Shown here: positions 6,026 through 35,645 of the stretch, piece by piece | Layout: each line of letters starts with the position of its first letter | Position numbering within the stretch: position 1 is the first letter of the stretch | From: a virus | IMG/VR virus record: IMGVR_UViG_3300027896_000076 | Location: 1-44,874 of that record | Length of the DNA: 44,874 bases | Direction: 5' to 3' (one strand) | Position numbers and translations under genes: made by a program | Notes under the pieces: generated by a model | The model's database searches: none | What the model was told of the DNA's origin: nothing | What the model saw: the letters and a program-made list of their open reading frames with translations, nothing else

Positions 6026-7228
6026 TTAGATGTGTGCTGTGCCGTAAACTTTTACAAACAGTTCGTTTGCAACTTTACGTTGTGTGTCATTGAGTTTGTT
6101 GAGATACACAAGCTGGTAAGCTTTTGTAAGGGATGAGCCATACGAAAGCTTTTTGCAGATGCTGAACAACGAACGAGGTGAAAGAGTCAAATTCAACTGA
6201 CCAGAGACATAACCTTGACGAACCAAGTTAGCAAGCTTGACAAGCTCCTTGGTTGCTTTCTTGGTGATGACAGACGACCATTTGTTTTGGATCATCTTTT
6301 CCTCTACTTCGGGTGCTAAGTAGCCAACATAGACTGCTGTACCGAAACGATCTAACGTAGCAGAGTTTTGTACGTTTGTACCTGCGTGTGAACCCGTATC
6401 GTCGCCTTGACCTTGTGTGTTGCCAATAGCCACAAGTTTGAAATGCTCGTGTGGAATGATTTGACGATCCTTGGTGTTACCCGGCATCTCTTTAAGAAAG
6501 AGCTTGCCGTTGTCCTCTAGAAGCCATTGCAGACCCATTGAGATCTCGGGAGGTGTTACGTCCCACTCGTCCCAAGCAAACACAGCACCATAGCGTACAG
6601 CTTCGGTAACAGCACCGTCTACCCATTGTGTAGAACCGTCTTTAGCAGTGAGTTGACCAAAGATCATTGACGAGTCCATGTCACCTGTGCAGTTGATACG
6701 AACAAACGGACGAGATGTACGAGCACATAGCTGTTCAATCAGCGAAGACTTACCTGCACCTGTTGGGCCATAGCAAAGCACTTTCTCGTTCATCTCCCAA
6801 GCACGCAAGATGCTCATAGCCAGATCAATGTCAATCACATACTCAGGATCAACATTTGGAATAAACGAAGCAATACGTTCATCCCATTCGTACTTGTCAA
6901 ACACTGTAACTGGAAAGTCAGAGTTCCAATCCATGCCTGTGGTACTAGTAACAGTTGAGAACAACTGCTGATTTGCATTCAACGCAATGCCTTTAGGAGC
7001 ATCACTGCTTATTGCAATAGGTTTTGCTATTTCTTCCTTACCAAGCATGTCCATAATCAGGTCAGACGGCTCTTTAGGAGGAACTGTTGTAGTAGACACT
7101 TTACGTTTCTCCAGTGCTTCCTTGAATGCTTTTTTCACAAGATCCTCTACTTTGTCTACACCAGTCGAACTGTATGTGGTTGTAGTTAACGAACTACCTG
7201 CTACTGATAAAGTACTAGACATATCCAA
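6026..7228 (-). CDS. CobS/MoxR-like AAA+ ATPase
   Basis: This protein has 400 residues from the ATG at 7228; Met3 at 7222 is an alternative start. Walker A is CYGPTGAGKSSLIEQL with Lys160 and Walker B is AVFAWDEWDVTPPE. Sensor-type residues follow in KLVAIGNTQGQGDD, and ATLDRFGTAVYVGYL fits the arginine-finger region. This is the CobS/CbbQ/NorQ branch of MoxR ATPases, which work as chaperone-like remodellers with a VWA partner. The partner gene lies directly upstream and overlaps by 14 bases. The first 90 residues are a Ser/Thr-rich, probably disordered tail. The cellular substrate is unknown; cobalt chelation is not implied because no ChlH/CobN subunit is encoded here. Confidence 0.85.
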   Translation of the reverse strand: MDMSSTLSVAGSSLTTTTYSSTGVDKVEDLVKKAFKEALEKRKVSTTTVPPKEPSDLIMDMLGKEEIAKPIAISSDAPKGIALNANQQLFSTVTSTTGMDWNSDFPVTVFDKYEWDERIASFIPNVDPEYVIDIDLAMSILRAWEMNEKVLCYGPTGAGKSSLIEQLCARTSRPFVRINCTGDMDSSMIFGQLTAKDGSTQWVDGAVTEAVRYGAVFAWDEWDVTPPEISMGLQWLLEDNGKLFLKEMPGNTKDRQIIPHEHFKLVAIGNTQGQGDDTGSHAGTNVQNSATLDRFGTAVYVGYLAPEVEEKMIQNKWSSVITKKATKELVKLANLVRQGYVSGQLNLTLSPRSLFSICKKLSYGSSLTKAYQLVYLNKLNDTQRKVANELFVKVYGTAHI

Positions 7229-9011
7229 TCACTTTCTTTTCTATTAGGGATAACAACTTACTCGGAATCTGCTCAGGCTTATCTACTACATCATGTGCTG
7301 AGTAGTAGTGCTTAACTGTGTTGCTGCACAAACCAAGACCATAGATGTCTACTTTCTTTGCTTGTTCAATCTCTTGAATTACTTTCTTAGTGAATGCTTC
7401 TAAGCCCCAAGACGATTTAGATGCTGCTGGTTCCCCATCAGACATAACAACAAACACACGCTTACGTTCTTTGCGTTTAAGCAGTCGTTCATAAGCCCAC
7501 AGAATGTTCTCACCGTCAGGATTGCCTTGCATGAAGTTGCTGCTTTTAGCAAAACTGTCAATAAGAGCATCGTTGCTAACATTTAAGTCTGAAAACGATT
7601 TGTAGATAAACATTGCAGGTGGGTTTCCAGTGTCGTATGTATCGCTAAAGCCAACAATCTCGACTGGAATACGCAACGTAGTACAGACTTCATTCATCAA
7701 CAGAGCAGAAGCAAGAGCATAGAATGCTTTATCTCCGCCCATAGAACCTGACATATCAACCAAAATTGAAATGGCAGCATCTAGAGTTTTGTTTTCAATA
7801 CGAGTTTTAAACACCCGTTCGTTAAAACCGGGAGCATTAAAACAAATGCGAGACAACCTCGACTGGTCTAACTTGCCTTTTTTTACTCCGTATTGAGTTT
7901 GTACCCTAGCTCTAATCTGAATTAACTTTCGTACTTGCTGTGCAAAGTTTTCTTGAGAGACTAATTTGTCTGCTACTCTGGCTTTGTATTCACGTTTAAA
8001 ACTTCTAGAGTCTGAACTGTCTGCAAAATATGAACCAAAGCCAATCCCCTTGGGGTAGTCAACAACAACAAACTTGTCGTAGTCAGTCATGTCCCAACGC
8101 TCAGTACCCTTTAGATCTACAGGTTCATGGTTGACACCAACTTTGCCCATAGGCTTACCAGTGTGAGGCATAGTCAAAGACATCTTGCCCAAATCTTCTT
8201 TGGTAAGTTTTACAGTGATGATTTTGTACTCATCATCTTTGTTGTCTTGTTCTTCAACCTCTCCACCTTCAGCGTCTTGGCTTTCTGCACTTGTAGGAGT
8301 TTCAGCATCACTTTTCTCACTACCTGTAGCTTTTGTTTTAGCAGATGCTTTATTTTCTGCTTCACTAGCTTTTGATGGAGATTTGATTCCAAGGTCTTTA
8401 AGAATGTCTACAGCCAAGTCATACGTAGCTTGAGTACCTAGTCTTTTGTCCAGAATCTGCTGACAAGAAACAAGACGATCAGAATAGTTATTAAGAACAT
8501 CTATAAATTTCTTATCAGGAGTAAACCGACTAGTGACAGCCTCAATGGTTGGGAAAAGAGCTGCTGTAATGTAAGATTCCCAGCACAGCAGTGATCGCGT
8601 TAGAGCCGCAGTAGGAGACGTTTCCTTAAGACTACGAACTAGCATTTTGTCGATTAACTTGGATGTTGTTTCATCCCAGTTAAGCCTAAATCCTAGATAC
8701 TCTCTAGCTTCAATAGCATTGATACGGGAGTCTTCTAAGAAGTTCCACACAAACATTAGTGCGCTAGATGGATCAAGTTTCTTTTCTTTCAACAACTCAA
8801 AAGAACTAAAACGTTCGTGTGCAACCTCGTGGTCAACAGACGACATCAGTTCTTTGAGTTGGTCTTCAGTAGTTGAGACAGTAATCCGAGGCAAATAGAT
8901 TGTTTTGCCATCATGCCTTGGTTGGTTAGTGTCTTCAAACTCTACTGAAATGCCAGCCCTACCTGCACTGGCACGGATGTACTTTGTTACCTCAATAGCT
9001 TTAGTCAGCAT
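7215..9011 (-). CDS. CobT-like VWA-domain protein
   Basis: This 598-residue partner of the adjacent ATPase has a C-terminal VWA domain with a metal-ion-dependent adhesion site, VDMSGSMGG (Asp419, Ser421, Ser423), followed by MSDGEPAASKSSWG. The N-terminal region contains VDHEVAHERF, an HExxH zincin-like motif at His61-His65, followed by NFLEDSRINAIEAREYLG. That combination is known from CobT-like VWA proteins, though catalytic protease activity is not established for it. A Lys/Ser/Glu-rich linker separates the halves (about residues 205-255). Pairs of MoxR ATPase and VWA protein remodel or activate target complexes; the target here is unknown. Confidence 0.83.
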   Translation of the reverse strand: MLTKAIEVTKYIRASAGRAGISVEFEDTNQPRHDGKTIYLPRITVSTTEDQLKELMSSVDHEVAHERFSSFELLKEKKLDPSSALMFVWNFLEDSRINAIEAREYLGFRLNWDETTSKLIDKMLVRSLKETSPTAALTRSLLCWESYITAALFPTIEAVTSRFTPDKKFIDVLNNYSDRLVSCQQILDKRLGTQATYDLAVDILKDLGIKSPSKASEAENKASAKTKATGSEKSDAETPTSAESQDAEGGEVEEQDNKDDEYKIITVKLTKEDLGKMSLTMPHTGKPMGKVGVNHEPVDLKGTERWDMTDYDKFVVVDYPKGIGFGSYFADSSDSRSFKREYKARVADKLVSQENFAQQVRKLIQIRARVQTQYGVKKGKLDQSRLSRICFNAPGFNERVFKTRIENKTLDAAISILVDMSGSMGGDKAFYALASALLMNEVCTTLRIPVEIVGFSDTYDTGNPPAMFIYKSFSDLNVSNDALIDSFAKSSNFMQGNPDGENILWAYERLLKRKERKRVFVVMSDGEPAASKSSWGLEAFTKKVIQEIEQAKKVDIYGLGLCSNTVKHYYSAHDVVDKPEQIPSKLLSLIEKKVIGYV

Positions 9012-10692: not shown

Positions 10693-10976
10693 TAATAGAT
10701 CTCCCGACGATCATCCCACTTGTCTAGACGTACACGGGAACTGACGAAATTGTTATTAGGAACATTGCTAGGCTCATCTAATGAGCTTATGAACTCGTTC
10801 CACTCGTTGCTCTCCAGTAAGTTAAAGCCAAGATGTTTGGCGTACTTAGTAGCAGAGTAGAGAGTTGGTTCTGTGAGTAGCAGTGGTCTACAGTTATGTT
10901 CCCACTCGATAGCAGATACACCGTGATTAGCTGGACGTAGTACAGCATTGTCATTGAGGTATATTAAGTGGAACAT
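10692..10976 (-). CDS. Early protein, unknown function
   Basis: This 94-residue protein begins MFHLIYLNDNAVLRPANHG. I use the ATG at 10976 because GGAG lies just upstream; the longer frame adds nine residues without a ribosome binding site. Sequence blocks include EWEHNCRPLLLTEPTLYSATKYAKHLGF and WNEFISSLDEPSN. A small alpha/beta domain seems likely, but I cannot name a family. It lies in a chain of overlapping early genes. Confidence 0.6.
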   Translation of the reverse strand: MFHLIYLNDNAVLRPANHGVSAIEWEHNCRPLLLTEPTLYSATKYAKHLGFNLLESNEWNEFISSLDEPSNVPNNNFVSSRVRLDKWDDRREIY

Positions 10977-10977
10977 A

Positions 10978-11115
10978 CTACATTCTCCAGAAATATATTG
11001 CAAAGGGTATACCTATAGCACCAGCTAGTATGAGTGATGCAATAATCTCTCGTATAAGAGAGTTACGTTGTTTACGATAGTAAACATCGTTAGTTATGTT
11101 GTAATGTTGTCTCAT
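10978..11115 (-). CDS. Small membrane protein
   Basis: This 45-residue protein has a polar, basic N-terminus (MRQHYNITNDVYYRKQRNS) and a hydrophobic C-terminal helix (IIASLILAGAIGIPFAIYFW). That arrangement suggests a single-span protein with the N-terminus in the cytoplasm. The start at 11115 has GGAG upstream; longer frames run into the stem-loop module at 11154 and are unlikely. Function is unknown. Confidence 0.6.
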   Translation of the reverse strand: MRQHYNITNDVYYRKQRNSLIREIIASLILAGAIGIPFAIYFWRM

Positions 11116-11153
11116 AATAAACTCCATATTCTTAAATAAACAGAAGGTCGCCG

Positions 11154-11237
11154 CCAATCGGCCCCCCAAAAGGGCCGAATGGCAAGACCGCAAAGAGTAA
11201 TGAGTAGCCAGCAGACCGTGTGCCAGCTACGCTGGCG
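11154..11237 (-). repeat. Intergenic stem-loop module, copy 2
   Basis: A hairpin with 11-base arms (11154-11164 with 11172-11182, one mismatch) is followed by the same 27-base block as at 10290-10316 (here 11211-11237, one mismatch), again containing GCCAGCTACGCTGGC (11222-11236). Hairpin sequence and spacing differ from copy 1 while the architecture is the same. This argues for a conserved RNA or DNA element rather than a recent duplication. It lies between the terminator at 11285 and the small membrane protein gene. Confidence 0.55.
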
Positions 11238-11252
11238 CGACGGTGTGCCTGT

Positions 11253-11264
11253 GTTACTAAGAAC
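11253..11264. repeat. Dispersed palindrome variant (GTTACTAAGAAC)
   Basis: This is an intergenic copy of the genome-wide GTTACTAGTAAC-like motif, lying between the stem-loop module and the leftward terminator. Being outside genes, it cannot be explained by protein-coding constraint. Confidence 0.5.
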
Positions 11265-11284
11265 ATGTAAATCCTTTGTAAAAG

Positions 11285-11307
11285 AAAAAAAGCGGCCCGA
11301 AGGCCGC
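11285..11307 (-). terminator. Leftward intrinsic terminator after first early gene
   Basis: On the leftward strand GCGGCC, loop TTCG, then GGCCGC (11292-11307) is followed by seven T residues (11285-11291). The loop closes as the very stable UUCG tetraloop. It lies six bases downstream of the stop of the 84-residue gene and upstream of all other leftward genes. Early transcripts would therefore have to read through it or start again below it. Confidence 0.85.
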
Positions 11308-11313
11308 CCTTGA

Positions 11314-11568
11314 TTAGCGTTCGCCAGAGTCAATCTTTTCGCTACCGCTGGCGCGTGCTCGTGCCGCTTTGTCGTCTGCCAGACGGCTACGAAGGGCTTT
11401 TACTTCTCCCAAAATTCCCCGCACGTCGTCTGCGCGAGGGTTGTCGTAGTTGTCCATGCTCCAGAGAGCGTTGGACAGCAGTTGCTGTGCGAGGTAAATC
11501 TGCAAGCCAGCGGGCTTGCGAGAGGTCGCATTGGTAAATGCTACAAAGTCAAAATCATTCTGTGCCAT
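11314..11568 (-). CDS. First leftward early protein, unknown function
   Basis: This 84-residue protein starts MAQNDFDFVAFTNATSRKPAG and has an AAGGAG ribosome binding site. The middle (LQIYLAQQLLSNALWSMDN) is helical, and the second half (VKALRSRLADDKAARARASG) is Arg/Ala-rich, fitting a basic helix. Its own transcript meets a strong terminator six bases after the stop. A regulator or RNA-binding role would suit its place at the head of the leftward block, but that is inference. The DNA upstream of its start forms one arm of the large inverted repeat. Confidence 0.65.
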   Translation of the reverse strand: MAQNDFDFVAFTNATSRKPAGLQIYLAQQLLSNALWSMDNYDNPRADDVRGILGEVKALRSRLADDKAARARASGSEKIDSGER

Positions 11569-11572
11569 ACTA

Positions 11573-11878
11573 AGCTCCTTAGGGTTAATGAGGATTTACA
11601 GAGTCCTCACAGACGCCCTCCCTAGTGGTGAGCCGCTTGCGGCGAGTCGCGCGTACAAACGTCAACAGGATACAGGCGGCGCAGGCCGCGCGATTAGCAA
11701 TGCGGAAAGGCGTAGCCCTTGCTGTGACAGGTTCTCAGCTCTGCTGAGGTTCTGGCGCAGTTTCTGCAAAGTGGCAAGCACTAAACAACAACAAGACCAA
11801 CAACACAACTGTCTTGCCACTGGTGCTAACCCGACGGGGGGGCTGGACTCTGTAAATTTTCAGGAACATTAAGGGGCT
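11573..11878 (+). ncRNA. Candidate branched RNA closed by 34-base inverted arms
   Basis: Arms 11573-11606 and 11845-11878 are complementary at 27 of 34 positions; four of the seven mismatches become G-U pairs in a plus-strand RNA but not in a minus-strand one. Inside, 11616-11622 pairs with 11836-11842 (again one G-U). Further stems are GCCG/CGGC (11632-11643), GCGGC/GCCGC (11676-11689), CTCAGC/GCTGAG (11734-11748) and a 9-base stem 11770-11778 with 11813-11821 around an A/C-rich loop. No protein-like frame is convincing. I recognise no known RNA family. An alternative is a pair of divergent leader or promoter copies in inverted orientation. Confidence 0.5.
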
Positions 11879-12311
11879 AAGTGTGGTTCAGATGAGTTTG
11901 GCTGAAGGAGCGTTTGCCAAGGTGAACTATTGCAGGCTTGTTGGATTGTAGGTTTGCCTTGCACGTAACTGCTTTGCCAACCGATATGGAGTGTGGATAG
12001 CTGCGATAGCCCTTGCGTAGATGATGTGCCTCCGTCAACATTTTGGGAAAGAAAAAGTCTTTCGGAGTTGTATGGTAGATGATGAAGTGGTATGAGTTCG
12101 TGTTAGGGGTAGTAAAAGTTGAAACTGGTGTGCGATAAGCGAGGGTGGTTTTGGGCTGCGTTTTATGCTTACACGTAGGTAGGCATAGACACCAAACAGA
12201 TAGCCTCAAGAAAGGGTGTTTTAGAGGCTTACAGGCACATCAAACAATGGATAGAGAAGTAGGCTATACATCTATGTTCAATGGGGGCTAAGTTATTGAT
12301 TCATAAGGATG
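11879..12311. other. Noncoding stretch without assigned feature
   Basis: I see no credible gene in these 433 bases. A leftward open frame (11877-12209) has an implausible composition and no good ribosome binding site. The words TTTGCC recur three times between 11910 and 11980, and a 6-base hairpin AGCCTC/GAGGCT lies at 12202-12229. The stretch joins the inverted-arm element to the putative origin and could be part of either. Confidence 0.5.
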
Positions 12312-12480
12312 CGTGAAACACACCGTGAAACATATAACAACGGGGGCTGTGGATAAGCTGTGGATAAGTATAGGTGTTACTAGTAATCTAGTAGGTATAG
12401 GTAGTAGTTGTAGGTTTACCTATATGTCCCTGTAGTAGTAGGGGTAGTGGGGGGAAATGTTTTTGGTCTTAATTTTTACT
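12312..12480. other. Putative replication origin
   Basis: CGTGAAACA occurs at 12312-12320 and 12324-12332 (12-base spacing). TGTGGATAA, the exact reverse complement of the DnaA box TTATCCACA, occurs at 12348-12356 and 12359-12367 (11-base spacing, one helical turn). The palindrome variant GTTACTAGTAAT (12376-12387), a stem TATAGGT/ACCTATA (12396-12424) and an AT-rich stretch near 12459-12482 follow. Repeats, DnaA boxes and an AT-rich stretch next to the point where transcription diverges are what an origin would show. Phage T7-type origins do not need DnaA, so function is inferred. Confidence 0.5.
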
Positions 12481-12550
12481 TGTCAAGGCTTACAACGCTG
12501 CCACAAGTTTTTAGAACAAGGGGGGGATACCCCTTATGATAGCAGTCCTC

Positions 12551-12616
12551 GACCTCAACGAGGTCTGCGGAAAACAACGGGGGGTAGATGCTTGAAGGTG
12601 CTCGTCCTTACAGGAC
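12551..12616. other. Two short perfect hairpins
   Basis: GACCTCAACGAGGTC (12551-12565) and GTCCTTACAGGAC (12604-12616) are compact hairpins in the noncoding hub. Neither is followed by a T-run. They precede the leftward terminator at 12645 and may belong to one structured RNA with it. Confidence 0.4.
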
Positions 12617-12644
12617 TCGCATAAGGCATAGAACGGATAGACAT

Positions 12645-12666
12645 AAAAAAAGGGCCTTACGGCCCT
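12645..12666 (-). terminator. Leftward intrinsic terminator in the hub
   Basis: On the leftward strand AGGGCC, loop GTAA, GGCCCT is followed by seven T residues (plus-strand A-run 12645-12651). On the plus strand no T-run follows, so it acts leftward only. No leftward gene lies between it and the divergence point at about 12830, so it would end a short noncoding transcript. Confidence 0.8.
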
Positions 12667-12821
12667 ACTACTAACAACACTCTATACCTGCACCAGAAAA
12701 AGAAAAAACGGTAAAAAAGAAAAAGAATATAAAGATTGTACACCAGCTTTTTAGGAACACAACTACTGATCGTTTGTACAGTCCTCGTCTACGACTGCGG
12801 TACAGTGTGTTGTACTTTTAC
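12645..12821 (-). ncRNA. Candidate short leftward RNA
   Basis: A leftward promoter candidate at 12828-12856 and the terminator at 12645-12666 bracket about 175 bases without an open frame. The RNA would carry a long pyrimidine tract (complement of the purine-rich run 12694-12735) and the ends of three TTGTAC words. It could be an independent small RNA or the attenuated leader of the early operon. Only the flanking signals support it. Confidence 0.35.
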
Positions 12822-12837
12822 AAAAGGATGATATAGT
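12810..12837 (+). promoter_or_regulatory. Candidate rightward promoter
   Basis: TTGTAC (12810-12815), a 16-base spacer and TATAGT (12832-12837) resemble a host sigma-70 promoter about 85 bases before the first rightward gene. TTGTAC also occurs at 12736 and 12774. As no phage RNA polymerase gene is present, a host-type promoter is expected here. Confidence 0.45.
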
Positions 12838-12856
12838 TCCGTCGTGTTGGTGTCCA
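12828..12856 (-). promoter_or_regulatory. Candidate leftward promoter
   Basis: On the leftward strand TGGACA (12851-12856), a 17-base spacer and TATCAT (12828-12833) each match the sigma-70 consensus at five of six bases. Its -10 element overlaps the -10 of the rightward candidate, so the two promoters would compete for polymerase. Confidence 0.45.
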
Positions 12857-12926
12857 AGCTAAAGGTCTGTGACATTAAACGAGTCTCCTTAAGACCGCCA
12901 ACAATAGTTTTTAACCGAGGAGCATC

Positions 12927-13181
12927 ATGGCTACAGGAAAAAAATCACCAGCATGGCAACGTAAAGAAGGCAAGTCTCCTTCGGGTGGACTGAATGCTAA
13001 GGGTCGTGCTTCTGCTAAAGCACAAGGTCATAACCTTAAAGCACCTCAACCTGAAGGTGGTAGTCGTAAGGATAGCTTCTGTGCCCGTATGGGCGGAATG
13101 AAGAAGAAGTTGACTGGTACAGCTAAGGCTAAAGACCCTAACTCTCGTATCAACAAAGCTCTTAAGAAGTGGAAGTGTTAA
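12927..13181 (+). CDS. Small basic phage protein (DUF6321-like)
   Basis: This 84-residue, Lys-rich protein opens the rightward block behind a GAGGAG ribosome binding site. PAWQRKEGKSPSGGLNAKGR and DSFCARMGGMKKKLTGTAKAKDPNSRINKALKKWKC match a family common in phages just upstream of terminase. Its strong positive charge suggests nucleic acid binding, perhaps in the virion or packaging complex, but the function is not established. The family name is from memory. Confidence 0.72.
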   Translation: MATGKKSPAWQRKEGKSPSGGLNAKGRASAKAQGHNLKAPQPEGGSRKDSFCARMGGMKKKLTGTAKAKDPNSRINKALKKWKC

Positions 13182-13352
13182 GTGGCTACTATCAACACTG
13201 GTACACAACCTAAAGGTTTGTATGCCAATATTCATGCAAAGAAGAAACGCATAGCCAAAGGTTCAGGGGAAAAGATGCGTACTCCCGGCACTAAAGGTGC
13301 TCCTACTGCTAAGGCTTTTAAACAGTCTGCCAAGACAGCTAAAAAGAAATAA
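13182..13352 (+). CDS. Small Lys-rich protein with GTG start
   Basis: A 56-residue frame starts at GTG immediately after the previous stop (TAAGTG) and ends one base before the small terminase ATG. The peptide contains GLYANIHAKKKRIAKGSGEKM and PGTKGAPTAKAFKQSAKTAKKK, which match small proteins repeatedly seen beside terminase genes in phages. The tight packing between its neighbours supports it. High charge points to DNA or RNA binding; no function is known to me. Confidence 0.7.
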   Translation: MATINTGTQPKGLYANIHAKKKRIAKGSGEKMRTPGTKGAPTAKAFKQSAKTAKKK

Positions 13353-31310: not shown

Positions 31311-34300
31311 ATGGCTGACTTTGGACAAAATGACGAAGTAGTCTCTAAGCCTTCTACTGTTACCTCTGCTGCTAAAAGTTCTTGGGGACAAGACGATGAA
31401 GTTGTAAGTAAACCTGCTGACACTAAACAACCCATAGTTGGTGGACGTGTTCACAACATTGTTCGTTCTGCTGTAGAAGCTGCTCCCAGTGCTGCTGCTG
31501 GTCTTGCAGGGTTTGGTGCAGGTATGGCTGCGGCTGCTCCTGTAGCAGCTAGTGTAGCCCCATTTACAGGCCCGTTTGCACCTGTTACTGCCGCAGCAAT
31601 TGAGTTTGGTGGTGGGTTAGGTACTGCGTTTGTTGCATCTGGTGCTGCTCAAAAATTGACAGACATGATGCACAAAACATTTGCACCTGAAGACTATGCT
31701 CAGCGTCAAATAGAAAAACAACAACGTCCGTATGGAACATTTGCTGCACAAACACTAGCTAATCTTGCTGGTATGTCTCCCAAGACTGCTCCTGAAGTTG
31801 CAGGAAAGATACTGACTAACCCAGCAGTGCAACGTGGTGTCTCTGGTACTTTAATGGGTGGCATTGAAGCTGGATCTGAGTTGGCTAGTGAAGGCAAAGT
31901 TGATCCGCTTAAAGTGGCTGCATCTGTTGCTACTGGTGCTGCTATGCCCGGGTTTAATCCTGCTGGTAAAAAACTATTTGAAGCAGGTCAATCTGCTACT
32001 ACCAAAATTCGCAGTAGTCTTCATAGCACTGCTGATGAAAAACCGTTGGCTCCAGAAGCACCTTCTAAAGTTAACTCAACACCTGAAGAACAAAAAGCTT
32101 TTCTTGATACTCTTAAAGCCAACAAAGCTAAGAAAGATGCTCAAGCTAAAGTTGTTCAAGCTGCATTTAAAAACAATGAGACTGGTGAGATTGAGTTGCA
32201 TGGCCCTAAGCACGATGAGAATCGTAAAGCAGAAACTACTGACACTCACACACAAGGTTTTGTTGATGAGAACGGTAACTTCTTAGATCGTAAAGAAGCT
32301 TGGAACCGTGCTGCTGATCTTGGTCAAGTTGAACAAACTAAACCTTCTCAAAAAGATGGATTGCATACTACTGACCTACGTGAGTCTGGTGATAAGAATT
32401 TTGAGTTGTTTCATACACCTGAGACAGTAGAAGGTGTTCCTGTTGTTATTGATAGGGGCATGACACGTAGTACTGATGGTGGTGTTGTAGGTGCTCGGTT
32501 CAAACATGAGACCAATGAGATTGGTTTTAACCCTGAACATACGTACCAACAGTTCTTAGACAAAGCTTGGACTAAACCTCAAGTAGATGGTGTGTTCCCA
32601 ATCTCTAAAGATGCTTTTAAAACACCACAAGAATGGGCTGACTTTGTTCTTCAACATGAAGCAGAGCATGTTAAAACTCCCCAACTTGAAGGACAAACTA
32701 AAGCTCAATACGAAAACCAAACTAACAAAGCTGCTCTTAAAGCTATTGCTGAAAAGAAAGCTAAAGCTACTGGTGAGCCTGCTACAGAGTTTCGTGCGGC
32801 TACGTTAGACGACACTGTTGCTCCTAAAACTATTTATCACGGAACATCTTCTCAAAACGTTCAAATAGATTCTGCTGGCAATTTAATACTTCGTCCTTCC
32901 TCTAACTTTGGAGGAAAAACTAATAGCGTTTCTTTTAGTCACGATTCTCGCGTGTCTGATCGCTATGCAGGAGACAGTGTTACTAAGTTGTCTGACGAAC
33001 TAATAGATGACCCAGAAGCACTTGATAAATTAAAACCTGTTTCAATTGAAATCTCTTCTGATGCGGTTCAAAACCTTAGTCGAGAAAACAAAGAAGAGTG
33101 GGCTGTTAATACCACAGAACCAGTTGTAATTCCAAAAGGCAAATACAAAGTTGTAGAGATTGATCCTGCTCGTCTTAAAAAGTCTAATGCTGAGTACTAC
33201 TCTGGAAAAATGGAAGAACCCATTATTGAGTGGAACAAATCTACAACAGCACCTAAACCTACAGAACCTGCTGCTGAGACTAAACCTGCTGAGCCTGTTG
33301 TTGACCGCACTAAGACTGATCCTCGTGACGTTAAGAGTCAACAAGAGTTCAACGAGATTGCTCAAGAGATTTATGAGAAGCATGGTGACACTAAGGCCAT
33401 TGAGTTCTTTGAAGGTTACAAAGAGTACGTAAAGACTTGGTTAGAACCTATTGCTGAGACTGAAAAATACACGGGCATTAACCTACGTAACAAAGCTGCT
33501 AACGAACGAGTTACTAGTAACAACACCAAAGACTTGCTAGACACGGCAGGTAAAGACGTTGACCTTAACAAGTTAACGTATGACATTGATAAGGGTGTAA
33601 CGCTTACTGGTAAAGCAAAACAAGTTGCTGATAAGTTCCGTGCTCTTATGGATGAGCTTGGTAAGCGTGCTCTTGATGCGGGTGTTATTAAAGGTTGGCA
33701 TGAAGACTACGTAGCTCGTAACGTTGTGTCTGAAGGTGATGCACCGCCTACTGCTTTACAAGAACTAATCCAAGATTTGTTTGGTACAGGTGGTAAAGGT
33801 GATGGTAGCAAAACTACAACTAAGTACGGCAAAGAACGTGTACTAAAGACTCGTGAAGACCTTGTAGACCATCTTAATAAAATGAATGCTTGGTTAGAAG
33901 AAAAAGGTGAGAACTACCGCTTTAAGCTTAAAACGGACAACCTTGCTGAGATTTATCACGACTATGCTTCTTCTGTTGAAAAAGCAATTGAGAACAAGAA
34001 GCTTGTAGAGACTTTAATGCAGATTCGTAACCCTGCGGGTGAGGCTTTGATTCGTGAAGTCAACAAAGACAATCCAATTCCATACAACTGGAAGACCATA
34101 GACAGTGCTCAATTTGCAGGCATGGCTGTACATCCTGACATGGCTCCTGCTTTGAAGTTTGTGTTTGATGCACCTCCCGGAAAACTTATGGAGGCTTTAG
34201 GATCTATTTCTCAATGGACTAAACGCTTTAATGTTGTTGGTAGTTTCTTCCATGCTAAGTCTATGATGGAAGTTATGTCTAGTGCAGGCATTCCTATTTG

Positions 34301-35645
34301 GACTCCTGTTAAAGAAGCACTAGTGTTACCTGCTGTAGAAAAAGTTGTTAAAGGTGTTACAGGTAAAGACATACAGTTGTCGGCTATCTCTAAAGCTGTT
34401 GATCAATACCGCAAAGGTGGTGTAGGTGACAACGTAGACAAATGGATTAGAGACTCTGGTTTAGTACTTGAAGTGCCTGAAGATGTAACTAAAGGGTTTT
34501 TAACTTCTTTAGGTAAATTTTCTGATTCAATGATTGGTAAATTTGGCCCTAAAACTCGTGTGCTTGAAAAGTCTTTGTCTACTGTTGAAAAATATACGTT
34601 GGGTATGTTTGACAAATTCACATGGGACTACTTGCATACTGGTGGAAAAATTATGCTTGCTGATGCGTACCTCGATAAAGCTCGTATAAGTGCTGCTAAA
34701 GAAGGTAAACCATTTGATGAAGCACAACAACGTAAAGAGATTGCCAGTTTTCTTAACAACAGTTTTGGTGGTTTAAATTGGTTTGAAGCAGCTACACAAA
34801 CGCAAAATGAATTTGCTAAACGTATAGCTATGGCTGCATATAGTCCTGAAGGTCGTCGTGGATTGCAAGTAGCTTTGTTTGCTCCTGACTGGACTATCTC
34901 TACGCTGCGTGCTTTTACTTCTGCTCTTCCTAAAGAACTAAACCCTACTAAATGGCAACCAGTAGAAGGCATAAAAGGAATGGTAACTCCTACAACTAAA
35001 GCAGACTACGCTAGGTTGTATCAATTTAAAACTGCATTGACATATTTGACTGTGTTAAACATAGCAAACATGATTACAGCTAACAGGCCAATATGGGAAA
35101 ACAAAGATCCAACTCGTATTGAGTGGCCTGATGGTACGTCTATGCAAGCTATGAAGCACGCTATGGAACCGTATCATTGGATTGCTGATCCAGACAAAAC
35201 ACTTGCTAGTAAGTTAGGGTTTGTACCTAAAGCTTTGTGGGTTGGTTTGGCTGGTACTGAGTACGCTAGTCCTCAAGCTCAAAAACTTATTGCTCCCAGT
35301 GTTACTGGTAACACCAAAATTGATGAGGCTTTGGCTCGTGGATCAACTATTGTTAAATCTATATTGCCATTCCAAGCTCAAGCAGCAATGGATTCTCCAA
35401 AAGGAGAGGGAACTAAACGTGCGTTACTAGGAACAGCAGGCTTCCCTGTGTACGGCAAGACTCCTGAACAACGTAAAATTGATAAAGAAGATCGTAAGCT
35501 TCGTTCAGAACAGAATGCTTGGGACTACCACGAAGCTGAAATTAACGCTGGTCGAGAAAAACGTACAGCAGCTCACATTAAAGAAGGCAAACGTATTCAA
35601 CGTGAGAATACAAACCTCGCAAAGAAAAAGGCTAGACTTGAATGA
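31311..35645 (+). CDS. Large polyvalent internal virion protein
   Basis: This 1444-residue protein is probably ejected with the DNA. The N-terminus holds two GQ(N/D)DEVVSKP repeats (residues 4-32), then an Ala/Gly-rich hydrophobic region (about 50-115). Residues 380-490 include a zincin-type HEAEH (His449-His453) preceded by KTPQEWADFVLQ. Residues 505-635 start IYHGTSS and include SFSHDSRVSDRYAGD, similar to ADP-ribosyltransferase-like folds. The rest (700-1444) is helical, with EFNEIAQEIYEKHGDTKAIEF and WHEDYVARNVV, like phage polyvalent-protein domains. Protease and ART activities are inferred from motifs only. Its TGA overlaps the ATG of the next gene. Confidence 0.75.
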   Translation: MADFGQNDEVVSKPSTVTSAAKSSWGQDDEVVSKPADTKQPIVGGRVHNIVRSAVEAAPSAAAGLAGFGAGMAAAAPVAASVAPFTGPFAPVTAAAIEFGGGLGTAFVASGAAQKLTDMMHKTFAPEDYAQRQIEKQQRPYGTFAAQTLANLAGMSPKTAPEVAGKILTNPAVQRGVSGTLMGGIEAGSELASEGKVDPLKVAASVATGAAMPGFNPAGKKLFEAGQSATTKIRSSLHSTADEKPLAPEAPSKVNSTPEEQKAFLDTLKANKAKKDAQAKVVQAAFKNNETGEIELHGPKHDENRKAETTDTHTQGFVDENGNFLDRKEAWNRAADLGQVEQTKPSQKDGLHTTDLRESGDKNFELFHTPETVEGVPVVIDRGMTRSTDGGVVGARFKHETNEIGFNPEHTYQQFLDKAWTKPQVDGVFPISKDAFKTPQEWADFVLQHEAEHVKTPQLEGQTKAQYENQTNKAALKAIAEKKAKATGEPATEFRAATLDDTVAPKTIYHGTSSQNVQIDSAGNLILRPSSNFGGKTNSVSFSHDSRVSDRYAGDSVTKLSDELIDDPEALDKLKPVSIEISSDAVQNLSRENKEEWAVNTTEPVVIPKGKYKVVEIDPARLKKSNAEYYSGKMEEPIIEWNKSTTAPKPTEPAAETKPAEPVVDRTKTDPRDVKSQQEFNEIAQEIYEKHGDTKAIEFFEGYKEYVKTWLEPIAETEKYTGINLRNKAANERVTSNNTKDLLDTAGKDVDLNKLTYDIDKGVTLTGKAKQVADKFRALMDELGKRALDAGVIKGWHEDYVARNVVSEGDAPPTALQELIQDLFGTGGKGDGSKTTTKYGKERVLKTREDLVDHLNKMNAWLEEKGENYRFKLKTDNLAEIYHDYASSVEKAIENKKLVETLMQIRNPAGEALIREVNKDNPIPYNWKTIDSAQFAGMAVHPDMAPALKFVFDAPPGKLMEALGSISQWTKRFNVVGSFFHAKSMMEVMSSAGIPIWTPVKEALVLPAVEKVVKGVTGKDIQLSAISKAVDQYRKGGVGDNVDKWIRDSGLVLEVPEDVTKGFLTSLGKFSDSMIGKFGPKTRVLEKSLSTVEKYTLGMFDKFTWDYLHTGGKIMLADAYLDKARISAAKEGKPFDEAQQRKEIASFLNNSFGGLNWFEAATQTQNEFAKRIAMAAYSPEGRRGLQVALFAPDWTISTLRAFTSALPKELNPTKWQPVEGIKGMVTPTTKADYARLYQFKTALTYLTVLNIANMITANRPIWENKDPTRIEWPDGTSMQAMKHAMEPYHWIADPDKTLASKLGFVPKALWVGLAGTEYASPQAQKLIAPSVTGNTKIDEALARGSTIVKSILPFQAQAAMDSPKGEGTKRALLGTAGFPVYGKTPEQRKIDKEDRKLRSEQNAWDYHEAEINAGREKRTAAHIKEGKRIQRENTNLAKKKARLE
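33510..33521. repeat. Dispersed palindrome, exact copy
   Basis: GTTACTAGTAAC within the 1444-residue protein gene, read as Val-Thr-Ser-Asn. It is the fourth exact copy. Confidence 0.6.

Follow-up and report, generated by a model that had tools for sequence, protein, structure and literature searches.

The plus strand of a freshwater phage genome recorded in IMG/VR (IMGVR_UViG_3300027896_000076, positions 1 to 44,874; the window is this whole stretch of 44,874 nt) folds into an 878-nt unit, in which a branched head stands on a long imperfect stem that takes in a small protein gene, p84, and this fold is kept by selection. It belongs to the plus strand, is conserved and covaries in related phages in association with p84, and in most of the long forms the outer end of its stem coincides with the p84 terminator. 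Dozens of uncultured freshwater phages carry such a folded element, which covaries, has a protein partner of its own and has not been described before. The unit is tentatively read as plus-strand folded single-stranded DNA that acts as a promoter or a primer-synthesis site for the p84 template (probability roughly 0.4).

The p84 stem and its branched head

The preliminary description of this DNA had proposed a 306-base branched RNA closed by arms of 34 nt (11573-11606 and 11845-11878) lying 238 nt apart, with seven mismatches of which four are G-U pairs on the plus strand only. The arms, their distance and the mismatch counts were all reproduced, none of the mismatches being G-U on the minus strand, and the branched interior with its 34-base A/C-rich loop (11779-11812) is present. 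The 306-base boundaries were not retained: the two arms form the innermost part of an imperfect inverted repeat of 320 bases (Table 1), the outer stem continues over 320 bases on each side, and the stem, at about ten times the proposed length, takes in a protein gene. In the arm alignment, a local alignment picked, like all those used here, by best score, the plus strand showed 228 Watson-Crick and 54 G-U pairs among 313 aligned pairs with no A-C, together with 31 other mismatches and 14 gap columns; G-U pairs of the minus strand amounted to zero.

Folded as RNA, the 878-nt unit gave -506 kcal/mol for the plus strand (z -22.7) and -299 kcal/mol for the minus strand, and the segment 11573-11878 gave -136 kcal/mol (z -6.5, none of 100 shuffles being as good) and -112 kcal/mol (z -2.5), respectively. 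With DNA energy parameters the asymmetry was the same, the plus strand giving -227 (z -17) and the minus strand -143 (z -3). The strand bias had been taken as the mark of an RNA; the wobble bias does fit RNA, but the bias alone cannot decide between RNA and DNA, since the plus strand folds under both energy models. No second structure approaching the 878-nt unit was found elsewhere in the window. At the 5' edge of the head a GAGG...CCTC pair (window 11589-11607, for example) could form a local hairpin competing with the long-range closing stem, and this alternative was found in most relatives too.

Arm 2 was ruled out as a coding sequence, because it has a GTG start and a broken frame and its substitutions relative to p84 are spread across all three codon positions. 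A chimera of assembly or amplification was likewise rejected, since 27% of the aligned positions differ between the arms and comparable hairpins occur in many independent contigs. Pure selection for stability was also discarded: in three of five hairpins, random arms carrying an equal number of changes were as stable or more so, which shows that selection does not act on maximal stability alone.

Table 1. Features of the folded unit and its surroundings (window positions).
Feature	Position	Strand	Remarks
p84	11314..11568	-	84 aa; the plus strand is its template; homologues in relatives at 22-67% identity
p84 ribosome-binding site, AAGGAG	11575..11580	-	Within arm 1; from sequence
p84 intrinsic terminator	11288..11311	-	Coincides with the outer end of arm 1
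Arm 1	11287..11606	+	Complement of the entire p84 transcription unit (terminator, coding sequence, ribosome-binding site and some 5' region); local arm alignment
Arm 2	11845..12164	+	Imperfect sense-like copy of p84; ATG changed to GTG, frame broken, terminator hairpin broken
Conserved branched head (core)	11597..11856	+	Covariance model R1, cmsearch 62.6 bits, E 1.3e-12, the window itself being among the 26 training sequences
Helix P8	TTAGCA 11694-11699 with TGCTAA 11824-11829	+	Covariation in relatives; window position by sequence
Helix P5	GCGGAAA 11702-11708 with TTTCTGC 11761-11767	+	100% of cells paired; C-G/G-C and A-U/U-A swaps
Hairpin GGC(GTA)GCC	11709..11717	+	C(GNA)G triloop
Helix P6	CTGTGACA 11722-11729 with TGGCGCAG 11753-11760	+	U-G wobble in 26/26 sequences; contains the TGGCG motif
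Hairpin P7, GTGGCAAG/CTTGCCAC	11771..11820	+	Closes the A/C-rich loop; sequence and fold
Two DnaA-box-like sites, TGTGGATAA	12348..12367 (12349, 12360)	+	11 bp apart; right of the unit

The head between the arms measures 238 bases and is branched, the conserved structure spanning about 250 bases. Helix P8 occurs in relatives as TTGGCA/TGCCAA, TTGCCA/TGGCAA and TGGGCA/TGCCCA, and in 51 of 55 loci p84 is preceded on its upstream side by the motif [ACT]TGGCG[TCG]. In agreement with the earlier statement that no known RNA family was recognised, comparison with Rfam, a search limited to described families, gave no family match at gathering score, the weak hits belonging to other families.

The p84 protein was modelled by AlphaFold as a two-helix hairpin (helices 20-40 and 46-79, mean pLDDT 87). 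It had no match in Pfam or PHROGs and no clear relative in the PDB, and it was absent from the named phages and GTDB genomes searched. Foldseek listed Rop/Rom among its matches at a non-significant E of 4.4, and this modelled likeness is a lead, not a result. From its position p84 is assumed to be an early gene.

The unit lies at the junction between leftward genes (5'-3' exonuclease, DNA polymerase A, DnaB-like helicase and Toprim protein) and rightward genes (terminase, portal and capsid). The tandem DnaA-box pair is about 200 bases from the element; a similar pair is present in about a dozen relatives, most relatives being without DnaA boxes. Just left of the unit, at about 9-10 kb, the cumulative GC skew reaches its minimum. 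The window contains no tRNA gene, and no plus-strand sigma-70-like promoter was found in 10900-13300. The largest open reading frame of the window (31311-35645) encodes a protein of 1444 aa with an 'IYHGTS' stretch and without a Pfam match, probably an ejected virion protein; an N4-like virion RNA polymerase (about 3500 residues) was not found in the window. Two further observations concern the minus strand. Between the element and the late genes, within 12650-12856, a sigma-70-like promoter (12856-12828) is followed by an intrinsic terminator (12666-12651), and the two would delimit a short RNA of about 170 nt. At 6026-9011, an AAA (MoxR-like) ATPase adjoins a protein resembling phage families annotated as CobT cobaltochelatase subunits, a possible auxiliary pair.

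Recurrence and covariation in related phages

Relatives were gathered from IMG/VR by searches with terminase, capsid, polymerase and p84, which gave 56 unique p84-bearing loci, 55 of them scorable; the loci are related by descent, so counts over them are not independent. The p84 start region pairs with an imperfect upstream copy (arm-alignment score at least 30) in 35 of the 55, over stem lengths from 45 bases up to the full gene, and the loss of arm complementarity in related genomes, raised in the preliminary description, is thus generally not seen. The plus strand folds more stably in 48 of the 55. The stem of L002, the closest relative by terminase, is only about 95 bases long, and long forms are scattered among the relatives. 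A DNA search of the region against named phages gave no match, and the nearest named phages by terminase (MW202796 and OK172329) contain no comparable hairpin.

Seventeen long hairpins, later finds included, have arms of 161-384 bases, with 16 of them at 247 or more. Their outer arm end lies 17-47 bases past the p84 stop, at the p84 terminator, in 12 cases (the distance for L316 was computed from its open reading frame). Pooled, they hold 3,700 Watson-Crick pairs, 286 G-U versus 83 A-C pairs, and 405 purine-purine versus 140 pyrimidine-pyrimidine mismatches. The general strand bias may be partly a matter of base composition, since the excess of G-A over C-T is even larger than that of G-U over A-C. 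An extreme G-U to A-C ratio occurs only in the window phage (54:0) and L007 (46:0), the other hairpins ranging from 32:7 down to parity, and for these two phages a composition model taken from the flank of the window was rejected (C>T 39:0, p 2e-6; A>G 15:0, p 9e-6). The longest perfect run is at most 13 pairs in all 17, and perfect runs were shorter than under random placement in five of the nine hairpins tested (P 0.001-0.015), those of the window phage, L007, L036 and L005 being not shorter. That a hairpin the length of a gene keeps up its pairing with a changing gene, with no perfect run exceeding 13 pairs, makes for a strong signature of an unusual kind.

In the noncoding stretch between p84 and terminase, further long near-palindromes of about 28-50 pairs were seen in some relatives, about 770-825 bases right of the p84 start in L045 and about 820-950 bases right of it in L077 and L078.

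Double changes in the stem kept pairing in 436 instances and broke it in 93, over 149 non-independent locus pairs. In close relatives the compensatory arm changes were 8 versus 0 (L280/L292) and 10 versus 0 (L285/L245). The head was aligned for 26 sequences (alignment A4, plain MAFFT, with the structure specified by the analyst), and both-side changes were found in 26 of 53 tested pairs. The covariation score was 0.183, compared with 0.081 +/- 0.006 for shuffles and at most 0.047 for slid versions of the structure. A covariance model of related phages, which the preliminary description had suggested building, matched five contigs outside its training set, namely L037 (E 1e-13), L057 (3e-7), L076, L075 and L074; scores at E near 0.01 in many other loci covered the closing stem alone and were left uncounted. 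The hairpin runs across the whole of a diverged p84 gene in L057, L075 and L076 and across most of the gene in L037, while L074 is cut by the contig end. Against the p84 profile the genes of L075, L057 and L037 gave weak but consistent matches (hhalign probability 64-84%). Of the earlier proposal of a structured RNA maintained by selection, the folded plus strand and, through covariation, the maintained structure are borne out; the certainty that it is an RNA is not.

RNA or single-stranded DNA

To our knowledge, covarying folds as large and elaborate as this one nearly always prove to be RNA, and the 54:0 wobble bias fits RNA, with 100 G-U versus no A-C in two phages when L007 is included. 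In natural RNAs G-U usually makes up several per cent of the pairs. The three best-aligned core helices contained 3 G-U in 458 cells, one invariant U-G excepted, and one core pair was AU in 16 sequences, GC in 10 and GU in none. Distinct core loops comprised 25 C(GNA)G triloops versus 2 GNRA, compared with 3 versus 16 in E. coli 16S and 23S rRNA (Fisher 1.2e-7; the controls are small), and C(GNA)G loops were absent from 116 terminator hairpins of the same phages. Their density was 5.3 per kb on the core plus strand, 0.5 on the core minus strand and about 0.25 elsewhere; against the surrounding phage DNA, the core plus strand is about 19 times richer in them. In 51 cores, 57 such hairpins were on the plus and 5 on the minus strand, 32 of the 51 having at least one; the window core has a single C(GNA)G hairpin, and L250 and L275 have none. 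d(GNA) is the DNA counterpart of GNRA (PMC5815330), and extrusion of the template-strand promoter hairpins of phage N4 requires a C:G closing pair and a loop with 5' G and 3' A (PMC4496689). Finally, 43 of 44 loci have the p84 terminator, and one of 44 has a terminator on the plus strand no more than 600 bases from arm 2; none was found at the window arm 2. Loop type, the scarcity of core G-U and the missing plus-strand terminator point towards folded single-stranded DNA, and a promoter or primer site of this kind is slightly favoured over an antisense RNA.

The element is a fold specific to the plus strand, the p84 template, with the head of about 250 bases atop a long, imperfect stem, which extends into p84 and covers the whole gene in many lineages. 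On the DNA reading, the plus strand, exposed by supercoiling or by replication at the adjoining DnaA-box region, would fold as single-stranded DNA, and the head would recruit RNA polymerase or primase to the p84 template. With arm 2 in place of the non-template strand, p84 could be transcribed from the folded strand; such a transcript would stop at the p84 terminator, where arm 1 ends in 12 of the 17 long forms. The imperfections of the stem would keep perfect DNA palindromes short. Besides loops, helices and terminator counts, the DnaA boxes with the skew minimum, the arm end at the p84 terminator and the asymmetry under DNA parameters support a DNA element; the wobble bias of the two phages, the invariant U-G, the lack of an N4-like polymerase, the patchy occurrence of C(GNA)G and the missing DnaA boxes of most relatives weigh against it. 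In its boldest form, the proposal is that in a double-stranded DNA phage the template strand of an early gene folds back on a mimic of the entire missing non-template strand, the gene becoming readable from single-stranded DNA, and that the head represents a novel type of single-stranded DNA promoter or primer site co-evolved with p84, which we consider rather improbable.

A plus-strand cis-encoded antisense RNA against p84 is possible, if on balance doubtful. Arm 1 exactly complements the p84 mRNA, including the ribosome-binding site and start codon and in many phages the whole mRNA to its terminator, and arm 2, as an imperfect mimic of the mRNA, would hold arm 1 in a metastable hairpin until displaced by the p84 mRNA, the head being perhaps a stability or protein-binding domain. 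The pairing between the arms, always imperfect where that with the mRNA would be perfect, agrees with this, as do the stem that always lies over the p84 start region and often equals the full p84 transcript, the wobble ratios of the window phage and L007 beyond local base composition, the invariant U-G of P6 and the precedent of RNA-OUT (PMC5006887). Such an RNA is opposed by the terminator missing in 43 of 44 loci, which leaves other types of 3' end, by the lack of a sigma-70-like plus-strand promoter around the unit, by the DNA-type loops and by core helices poor in G-U. The elaborate covarying head, the origin-like surroundings and the two-helix p84, with Rop/Rom among its structural matches, could also suit a freestanding RNA, either GOLLD/ROOL-like or a replication pre-primer like ColE1 RNAII with p84 as a Rop-like partner, its stem overlapping p84 by chance. 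The Rop matches are non-significant, however, Rfam, tRNA and plus-strand terminator searches were negative, and why the stem tracks p84 to its terminator would be left unexplained, which makes this explanation very unlikely. The antisense and freestanding RNA readings together are about as probable as the folded single-stranded DNA, somewhat short of an even chance.

By-products of DNA metabolism would account for the widely varying stem lengths, with scattered long forms and the short stem of L002, if a short functional hairpin near the origin primed fold-back copying and p84 was repeatedly duplicated in inverted orientation, the copy then decaying by strand-biased mutation and selection against perfect palindromes. 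The short perfect runs, below random in five hairpins, and a bias that outside the window phage and L007 tracks a general excess of G over C, as skew would give, are in line with such an origin; the compensatory arm changes in close relatives, the conserved head and the two ratios exceeding the composition model are not, and we regard it as quite unlikely. If the structure were instead a minus-strand 5' leader of p84 that controls p84 translation, it would be clear why the ribosome-binding site and start codon of p84 lie within the stem in nearly all forms. This explanation is highly improbable, as on that strand G-U pairs turn into A-C mismatches and folding is much less stable, the invariant U-G turns into C-A and the GNA loops into TNC, and the plus strand is the more stable in 48 of 55 loci. 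The folded single-stranded DNA preferred here would be informative as a promoter or origin in tailed phages, and an RNA would be equally so as a gene-length self-sequestered antisense RNA.

Comparison with known systems

The Frpo/ssi promoters of plasmids F and ColIb-P9 are recognised by RNA polymerase as single strands only (PMC7736820). With these and with sso elements (PMC4595007) the unit shares a one-strand folded element of a few hundred bases near replication functions, placed upstream of a gene whose template is the folded strand, and the strand-specific fold with conserved stem-loops was found here as well. It differs in belonging to a tailed double-stranded DNA phage, in a stem that runs through a whole protein gene and in a single-strand activity that is putative. 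The early promoters of N4 (PMC4496689) resemble it in that C(GNA)G hairpins on the template strand precede a gene whose transcription leads away from them, an arrangement present here on the assumption that p84 is early; the N4 promoters are, however, single small hairpins used by a giant virion RNA polymerase, whereas the present fold is large and multi-helical and no such polymerase was found.

Among RNAs, RNA-OUT of IS10, whose first 35 nt match without a mismatch the complement of the transposase mRNA where its translation begins (PMC5006887), also combines complementarity to the start region of an opposite-strand gene with a long imperfect stem, and both traits were observed here. RNA-OUT is a transcript of 69 nt with its own promoter and end, whereas the present unit reaches 878 nt with a branched head, often takes in a whole gene and has no terminator, a discrete transcript with its own 3' end not being indicated (terminator in 1/44 loci). 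GOLLD and ROOL (PMC12286853) are likewise large, ornate, covarying structures of phage genomes; the present element is without an Rfam match or neighbouring tRNA genes and is joined to a gene-length stem. Obelisks (PMC13096302, PMC11922315) share the rod of about 1 kb with a protein gene in one arm, but are circular RNA replicons, whereas the unit described here is a locus of phage DNA beside terminase, polymerase and capsid genes and encodes an unrelated small protein.
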